From Candidatus Gastranaerophilales bacterium (GTDB lineage Bacteria; Cyanobacteriota; Vampirovibrionia; Gastranaerophilales; Gastranaerophilaceae): a stretch of 34,532 bases of DNA. The notes below the pieces were generated by a model. The model was not told the DNA's origin. It ran no database searches and was given only the letters and a program-made list of their open reading frames with translations. Location of the stretch: positions 1-34,532 of the forward strand of contig CALUQJ010000012.1 in the NCBI GenBank assembly GCA_944322865.1, read 5' to 3'. Position numbers and translations under genes: made by a program. Below, piece after piece: positions 33,494 to 34,532 of this stretch. How positions within the stretch are numbered: position 1 is the stretch's first letter; each line of letters starts with the position of its first letter.

Positions 33494-33583
33494 GAAAAAT
33501 TTTAGCGCACTAAGTTACTAAGGCGCTAAGTAGTTACAAAAAATAAGACAATGCGTGAGTATCCTTATTAACGTCTTTTGAAC

Positions 33584-33745
33584 AAGGCAATGCTTAAATC
33601 TTGCATTACCTTATTTTTGTAAAGAACTTATTCCCTTATTCCCCTATTTCCTTATTCCCTTAAAAACAGGCAACGTGAAAAATTCCACATTGCCTATTTT
33701 TTGTAAAGAACTTATTCCCTTATTTCCCTATTTCCTTATTCCCTT
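33584..33745. repeat. Two tandem hairpin-plus-tail repeats, 84-base period
   Basis: Unit A: stem 33584-33593/33603-33612, ATTTTT, tail 33618-33661. Unit B: stem 33668-33677/33686-33695, ATTTTTT, tail 33702-33745. The 44-base tails differ at one base. The stems differ in sequence but both pair, each with one C-A mismatch. The plus-strand tail is built from TTATTCCC words, so the minus strand has spaced G runs. Confidence 0.85.
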
Positions 33746-33776
33746 CCAGTAAGAGGCATCAAGCCTCTTACTGGAA
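33744..33776. repeat. Perfect 14-base-pair inverted repeat after the pilin-like gene
   Basis: TTCCAGTAAGAGGC (33744-33757) and its exact complement (33763-33776) flank ATCAA. It lies 27 bases past the stop codon of the pilin-like gene. No T run follows on the minus strand, so a plain terminator is less likely; a cruciform near a retroelement variable region is a possible role. Confidence 0.8.
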
Positions 33777-33803: not shown

Positions 33804-34532
33804 TTAATCACCTAGGCAAACCGCGAGTAGGCCGCTGTCGCTGCGGCTGACGTAGTCCCAGTACGTGCTGGCAGGGGTGAAGCCGCGGTGGTACGCGTCG
33901 AACTGGCTGTACTCCTGCCCGGACCAAACGTAGAACCGGTCTGAATAAGGTGAAGCTGAGAGGAGTTGAGATGCTTTTGTTGTGTCTAAGTTTATTCCGC
34001 TGCTTATATCTTGTTGGGCTCCTATTGTCCCATCGTAATTATATAAGTAGGTAGCTAACTGTCCCAGCTGTTCCATTGTTGGCATGTTTTGTACTCCGCC
34101 GCATGCTCTTACTGCGCCTGCCCAATAATCTGAGCTATAGTAACATGCTGTTATTCCTAATGTACCTTCTGATACCGCTTGATTACATTCTTCTAATGTC
34201 ATAGGGCTATAGCCGCCGTTTTGTGGTCCTAATATCTGTGTTATGCACATTGTATCTTTTAATTCTGGTATCATACAACCTGTTACGCCGGCTAATTGTT
34301 CTACGTTTATCTTACCGATATCTTTTCCGTTTGTATTTGGATTCTTATTACCGGATACATCGTATAATATTGCCATTGAATTGCTTGTTGCGCTAAACTG
34401 GTTATTATATGGATCCTGTGTTGCATTTGGATTATATGCTATTATCGCGTTTACGCCGTTTGCAAATTGCACAGCTACGGTATCTGTATCCCAGTCCTCT
34501 TGACCGAGTGATGCGGCATTTTGGATTGTTGA
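33804..34532 (-). CDS. Pilin-like protein with C-type-lectin-like end (5' end cut by window edge)
   Basis: The frame is open to the right edge, giving 242 residues of a longer protein; the N-terminus, where a prepilin cleavage site would be, is missing. Residues about 110-165 (ITACYYSSDYWAGAVRACGG, then NMPTMEQLGQLATYL) and the end (VWSGQEYSQFDAYHRGF ... LAVCLGD) follow the DUF1566/C-type-lectin pattern with paired cysteines, common in surface pilin-like proteins of gut cyanobacteria-related bacteria. The last 45 codons differ sharply in base composition from the rest and look like a retroelement-diversified region (see separate entry). Role is probably surface binding; the target is unknown. 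Confidence 0.75.
   Translation of the reverse strand, partial: STIQNAASLGQEDWDTDTVAVQFANGVNAIIAYNPNATQDPYNNQFSATSNSMAILYDVSGNKNPNTNGKDIGKINVEQLAGVTGCMIPELKDTMCITQILGPQNGGYSPMTLEECNQAVSEGTLGITACYYSSDYWAGAVRACGGVQNMPTMEQLGQLATYLYNYDGTIGAQQDISSGINLDTTKASQLLSASPYSDRFYVWSGQEYSQFDAYHRGFTPASTYWDYVSRSDSGLLAVCLGD
33807..33941 (-). other. Candidate diversity-generating retroelement variable region
   Basis: The last 45 sense codons of the pilin-like gene. By count, 84 of 130 bases in 33811-33940 are G or C against 54 of 130 in the next 130 bases. 28 of 45 codons end in C (TAC, AGC, GAC, CAC, TTC, GGC, CGC...), against 10 of the 38 codons before. This is what arises when AAC codons of a template repeat are randomised at the adenines. 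It lies at the extreme C-terminus of a lectin-like fold, as in known targets. The template repeat and reverse transcriptase are not in the window. Confidence 0.6.

Follow-up and report, generated by a model that had tools for sequence, protein, structure and literature searches.

A single diversity-generating retroelement and its dispersed pilin-like target genes in a Gastranaerophilales genome

The end of the window gene and its template

The window analysed here, 34,532 nucleotides long, is a whole contig (G000:C12) of a Candidatus Gastranaerophilales genome, from a gut-dwelling relative of the cyanobacteria, and the gene at its end switches abruptly in composition over its last codons. What generated this switch, and is this gene the only one concerned? 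The gene lies at 33804-34532 on the minus strand and runs past the contig end at its 5' side, so that its own start is lost and 242 codons are present. We identified it as a diversity-generating retroelement (DGR) target gene that probably encodes the C-terminal part of a type IV pilin-like protein, on the basis of its open frame and of its paralogs, some of which carry a prepilin signal. The original prediction, that an intact pilin-like frame ends in the variable region (VR) of a DGR, drew on a GC-rich, NNC-rich and Asn-free stretch of 45 codons. On recounting, the frame was open up to the stop codon at 33804-33806, and GC content was 64% in the final 45 codons (33807-33941, minus strand) compared to 40% for the remainder of the gene and 37% for the window as a whole. 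These codons comprise 28 NNC and no Asn codons, versus 39 NNC and 18 Asn among the other 197 codons, a significant NNC enrichment (Fisher p=6e-8).

Searching the genome DNA with the window gene returned 26 further matches, one of which (C23:1571-1696) lies beside a reverse transcriptase (RT) gene. This match falls in a non-coding, AAC-rich template repeat (TR) at about C23:1568-1700. Alignment with the TR placed the VR at 33811-33936 on the minus strand; the composition was thus as predicted for 33807-33941, and the part that matches the template is narrower. Within the VR, 21 of 41 template adenines differ and none of the 82 other bases does (Fisher p=1e-12), which is the near-copy with differences confined to adenines that a retroelement origin had led the prediction to expect. 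The last ~42 codons of the window gene are a DGR variable region. The 3' end of the VR, CTCGCGGTTTGCCTAGG (33811-33827, minus strand), is adenine-poor and near-invariant in the per-site table of 23 targets, and by the BPP-1 model is the probable start site of mutagenic homing (IMH).

The TR belongs to a complete cassette on contig C23, in the order cis target-Avd-TR-RT. The end of the cis target gene (C23a) occupies C23:1-294, and the Avd gene follows at C23:1005-1376. The latter was recognized by Pfam (bAvd, PF22296, 62 bits with a cut-off of 40) and by PHROG ("Avd protein of DGR", E=1.5e-28); NCBIfam DivGenRetAVD matched with E=1.1e-17, under its cut-off. The TR lies between Avd and a 381-codon RT gene (C23:1746-2891) that matches PF00078 over the cut-off. 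Its product contains IGNLTSQ and YVDD, and is 76% and 79% identical to the RTs of two relatives (G038, where it sits in the same cassette, and G068, respectively), features that assign it by sequence to the DGR type. As foreseen, the RT and Avd genes flank the near-copy, and the window gene is remote from the RT, the two being on different contigs.

A second RT gene in the genome was ruled out as the DGR enzyme, since PADLOC calls it RT_UG5-nitrilase. This unrelated RT (G000:C24, L035, 1869-5057, plus strand; 1062 aa, E=8e-220) is a candidate anti-phage defence RT, and is preceded by a 398-aa gene that had no PADLOC match. In the window itself, adjoining nucleotidyltransferase (PF18765/PF01909) and NTase_sub_bind (PF08780, 103 bits) genes at 2131-2824 on the minus strand form an MNT/HEPN-type pair. 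Pairs of this type are often toxin-antitoxin systems.

Twenty-three targets and their downstream hairpins

We then searched the genome with the TR. This yielded 23 VRs, each in a target gene with a locus of its own; 22 lie in trans, and the total is to be taken as at least 23. In all 23 targets, the VR lies at the 3' end of an open frame with no internal stops, and all 23 VR sequences are distinct. Compared to the TR, adenines were changed at 430 of 942 positions (46%) and other bases at 57 of 1,861 (3%; p=3e-171). Most VRs show 0-2 non-adenine changes alongside a dozen or more adenine changes. The non-adenine changes fall mostly in the VRs of C8, C45, C54 and C27b, with 7-15 each; these look older and may no longer be active targets. 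Paralogs with 97-100% upstream identity have VRs that are merely 79-87% identical, and C91 and C23a are identical over 162 upstream bases and 87% identical in the VR. A DGR origin of the VRs is beyond reasonable doubt.

The mutated adenines are not evenly spread over the TR core. Adenines of AAC and AAA codons were changed in 57% of cells of the alignment, versus 6.5% for the four adenines of TAC, ACC, ACG and AGC codons (p=2e-22). Read most simply, this sparing means that mutation strikes every adenine and that variants with an impaired scaffold disappear; alternatively, the RT may respond to sequence context.

The segments upstream of the VRs vary as well and look like mosaics of a few types. 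Since pilins often vary, and since this variation reaches the sequence just upstream of the VR, we considered whether recombination and positive selection could have diversified the end of the window gene, as an ordinary hypervariable pilin domain, with no reverse transcriptase involved. These processes, however, do not confine differences to the adenines of one non-coding template that lies next to an RT and Avd, and the adenine pattern recurs in the relative G038 against a different TR. The simple form of this explanation is refuted by the adenine-only differences of the window VR, and we give hardly any credence to the explanation as a whole. In the window gene, residues preceding DYWAG (C-YYSS-DYWAG, about 34130-34150, minus strand) are strongly variable between paralogs (YYSS, EEET, HWVN, SYGT), and lie upstream of the VR, outside the template.

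Many target contigs end within the target gene, as repeats do in short-read assemblies, which would fit several of the 23 VRs being strain variants of one locus left unmerged in the metagenome assembly. However, when downstream flanks were compared over 450-2300 bp, no similarity was found beyond 450 bp between any two of the 23 loci, indicating separate loci and not strain variants of one. Moreover, the estimated contamination of this 1.8 Mb genome is 0.13%, and several G038 VRs share one contig. Strain variation is thus a very improbable source of the repertoire. We also found no relative of the variable domain in the viral contigs searched, and hence no sign that the domain is phage-borne.

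Every target has an inverted repeat 3-40 nt downstream of its VR (23/23). In the window, this is a perfect 14-bp hairpin/cruciform with a 5-nt loop at 33744-33776, about 40 nt after the VR. It is a probable DGR target-recognition structure, considering that the motif is restricted to VR genes and that its stem shows compensatory pairs. Twenty-two of the 23 targets carry a hairpin of the YCARTAAGAGG type, beginning 3 nt or 36-40 nt past the conserved GCGGTTTGCCT, and within the genome this main motif occurs beside VR genes only; the hairpin of the cis target C23a is unrelated to it and has 10 bp (GCGCGATTTT/AAAATCGCGC). At two positions of the stem, both partners have changed together (G-C to A-T and C-G to A-T), and 94.6% of cells pair, whereas shifted registers pair far worse. 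In BPP-1, a hairpin after the VR is required, and pairing in its stem matters while the stem sequence can vary (Guo 2011, PMC3240598). Phage DGR hairpins lie 4 to 34 bp from the VR and have GRNA loops (PMC3240598). The loops found here are TTGAT, TTTAT, TTGGT, C, ACA and TCCAG; the phage-type 4-nt GRNA loop, which does not define cellular DGRs, is absent from the target hairpins.

We also considered the hairpin as a transcription terminator. Both the lack of a T-run after it on the gene strand of the window and the compensated variation of its stem are more in keeping with target recognition. A dual role in recognition and termination may nevertheless exist. Past the hairpin, at 33519-33745, the window contains repeated intergenic units, among them a 58-nt unit, rich in TTCCCTTATT, that is present twice. 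Related sequence follows most other target genes, and may be a short repeat carried along with them.

Given that target genes with the VR end and the hairpin are spread through the genome, one cassette would serve all of them. We put at about 0.92 the probability that a single cellular DGR diversifies at least 23 genes, the window gene among them and all but one in trans, and so gives rise to a pilin-like repertoire.

The target proteins and related genomes

The prediction had called the gene pilin-like. This is backed by near-identical paralogs that have the N-terminus, the window sequence itself not containing it. The complete paralog C54 has a prepilin cleavage/methylation motif, with PF07963 and TIGR02532 over their curated cut-offs, and the N-terminal fragments C67 and C76 show FTLAEVLITLA upstream of sequence that is near-identical to the beginning of the window gene. 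The genome also has a prepilin peptidase gene, at C30 (PF06750, 118 bits). Judging from the complete paralogs, the targets are likely type IV pilin-like proteins, in which a prepilin signal at the N-terminus and a conserved middle part precede a variable domain at the C-terminus.

The variable domain had additionally been described as C-type-lectin/DUF1566-like. A Pfam search with the window protein and 11 variable domains did not bear this family membership out, giving no lectin and no DUF1566 match, and a PDB profile search gave chance-level matches only. An AlphaFold2 model built from just two sequences had a pLDDT of 32, too low to be of use. Other DGR targets have a C-type lectin fold (PMC8144416, PMC5006420), and by analogy with them the same fold is expected here.

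The relative G038, a Candidatus Gastranaerophilales genome of the window's family, independently shows the same complete cassette, with the RT that is 76% identical. Its cis target is full length (430 aa) and extends from the prepilin motif to the VR. At least 20 targets were counted in this genome, where 20 VRs compared to its own, different TR showed 43% of adenines changed and 4-6% of other bases. The AAC and AAA adenines were changed in 56% of cases versus 27.5% for the others, and most of the changed others come from one AAT codon. A prepilin motif was found in 17 of the 20 target frames; two of the other three run off a contig end and the third is L201.

Each of the four genus-mates G017, G080, G105 and G125 yielded between 38 and 56 domain matches, and no DGR-type RT, Avd or TR was found in their assemblies. 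In G017 and G080 (loci L217-L256), the template-adenine columns are still the variable ones (entropy 1.33 vs 0.3). G017 seems to hold copies of two backbones. In a further relative, G053, a target-Avd-TR module on C19 (L267/L145) has no RT beside it, and a related DGR-like RT lies on C9 (L257); a second Avd-TR module was seen on C12 of this genome. Loss, assembly gaps or action in trans may each account for a missing RT. Taken with the four RT-less genus-mates and their 38-56 target-family genes, the split DGR of G053 suggests that the cassette may come and go while the target library persists.

Related RTs were also observed elsewhere. On G068:C65 (L100), the RT that is 79% identical to that of the window's genome has no adjoining TR or Avd, and a small upstream gene resembles a GIY-YIG endonuclease. 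RTs that are 50-56% identical occur in several other Gastranaerophilales genera (L104-L110; g10, g36), in genomes that had no match to the pilin-VR domain.

The genus-mates bear on whether the system still works in the window's genome. The VRs could have been made by a DGR in the past, with the system mostly silent now and the 23 genes left as a frozen repertoire under ordinary selection and recombination. The persistence of 38-56 family members in genus-mates where DGR-type RT, Avd and TR were not found is in keeping with this, as are the four VRs with 7-15 non-adenine changes and the mosaic-like upstream segments. Against it, RT, Avd and TR are intact in the window's genome. Moreover, the scarcity of non-adenine changes in most VRs, together with near-identical paralogs that differ mainly in the VR, indicates that homing was recently faster than ordinary mutation. 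We therefore consider a mostly silent system unlikely, although it deserves more weight than the two alternatives discussed above, and favor a DGR that probably still supplies its targets; surface display, ligand binding and variation of the protein between cells are likewise predicted.

Proposed working and comparison with known elements

By analogy with BPP-1, homing would proceed as follows. The C23 cassette would transcribe the AAC-rich TR, and the RT, aided by Avd, would copy this RNA while placing random bases opposite adenines. The resulting cDNA would take the place of the target gene's 3' end, directly before the hairpin, and any gene with a matching VR end and a hairpin could receive it. 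Target proteins would then be processed by the prepilin peptidase and displayed in pilus-like form or on the surface, where their variable domains may recognize, for example, glycans, other microbes or phages. Since each target offers 14 AAC codons that can turn into any NNC codon, the number of possible proteins for one target is about 15^14.

The BPP-1 Bordetella phage DGR has the order target-Avd-TR-RT (mtd-avd-TR-brt). The element described here shares this order, the adenine specificity of a VR located at the 3' end of its gene, and a hairpin just past the VR. It differs in being a cellular element with at least 23 targets and other loops of 1-5 nt, whereas BPP-1 diversifies a phage tail protein from one cis target and has a 4-nt GRNA loop. 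In the DGRs of photosynthetic cyanobacteria, one TR serves remote targets with the VR at the 3' end (Vallota-Eastman 2020, PMC7517822). However, the 76 remote targets reported there are from the whole genome set and are mostly predicted to be cytosolic, with pilins unmentioned (PMC7517822), while here a single genome of 1.8 Mb contains at least 22 remote pilin-like targets of one TR.

Type V tip pilins are diversified by DGRs in Bacteroides, as relayed in PMC12632263 (Macadangdang 2024). The likeness is that of a gut bacterium and a pilin with a C-terminal variable binding domain, binding being presumed in our case; the difference is that type V pili of Bacteroides come from lipoprotein precursors, whereas the targets here would be type IV prepilins. 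Thiohalocapsa PB-PSB1 has nine DGR loci with 15 targets, tied to NACHT-type conflict systems (PMC10907252). It is similarly cellular, with many targets, some apparently in trans, but one cassette and 23 pilin-like targets are found here. The bimodular type IV pilins of Streptococcus sanguinis consist of a pilin N-terminus with a grafted C-terminal adhesive domain (PMC8179133, PMC9934059). Their type IV pilin N-terminus carrying a C-terminal domain resembles that of our targets; they are not known to be hypermutated and are encoded by few genes, compared to tens here. As for target number, 21 VRs within one ORF have been described in one genome record, and a link of putative pilin structures to DUF1566 domains has also been noted (PMC6642488).

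Our literature search, which covered few subscription papers and preprints, returned no report of DGRs in Melainabacteria/Gastranaerophilales and no DGR paper dealing with type IV pili. Nor did the literature searched describe one TR with more than 20 type IV pilin-like targets. Thus, the machinery is of a known kind, a DGR, and it is the target class and the target number that appear new.

Most studied DGRs have one or few targets. Here, one template serves at least 23 dispersed genes for pilin-like, presumably surface-exposed proteins, and a relative is alike. This provides a natural experiment on target choice, in which the VR 3' end and the hairpin can be read from more than 40 examples, degraded ones included. 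It is possible, in our estimation somewhat short of an even chance, that the type IV pilin adhesins of this small genome, more than 20 in number, are kept diverse in trans by one retroelement, which would make for a combinatorial, constantly renewed pilus surface, and that the RT is separable from its targets. If true, cells could carry ever-changing binding surfaces, a possible way for this little-studied gut lineage to adjust its adhesion or to evade phages.
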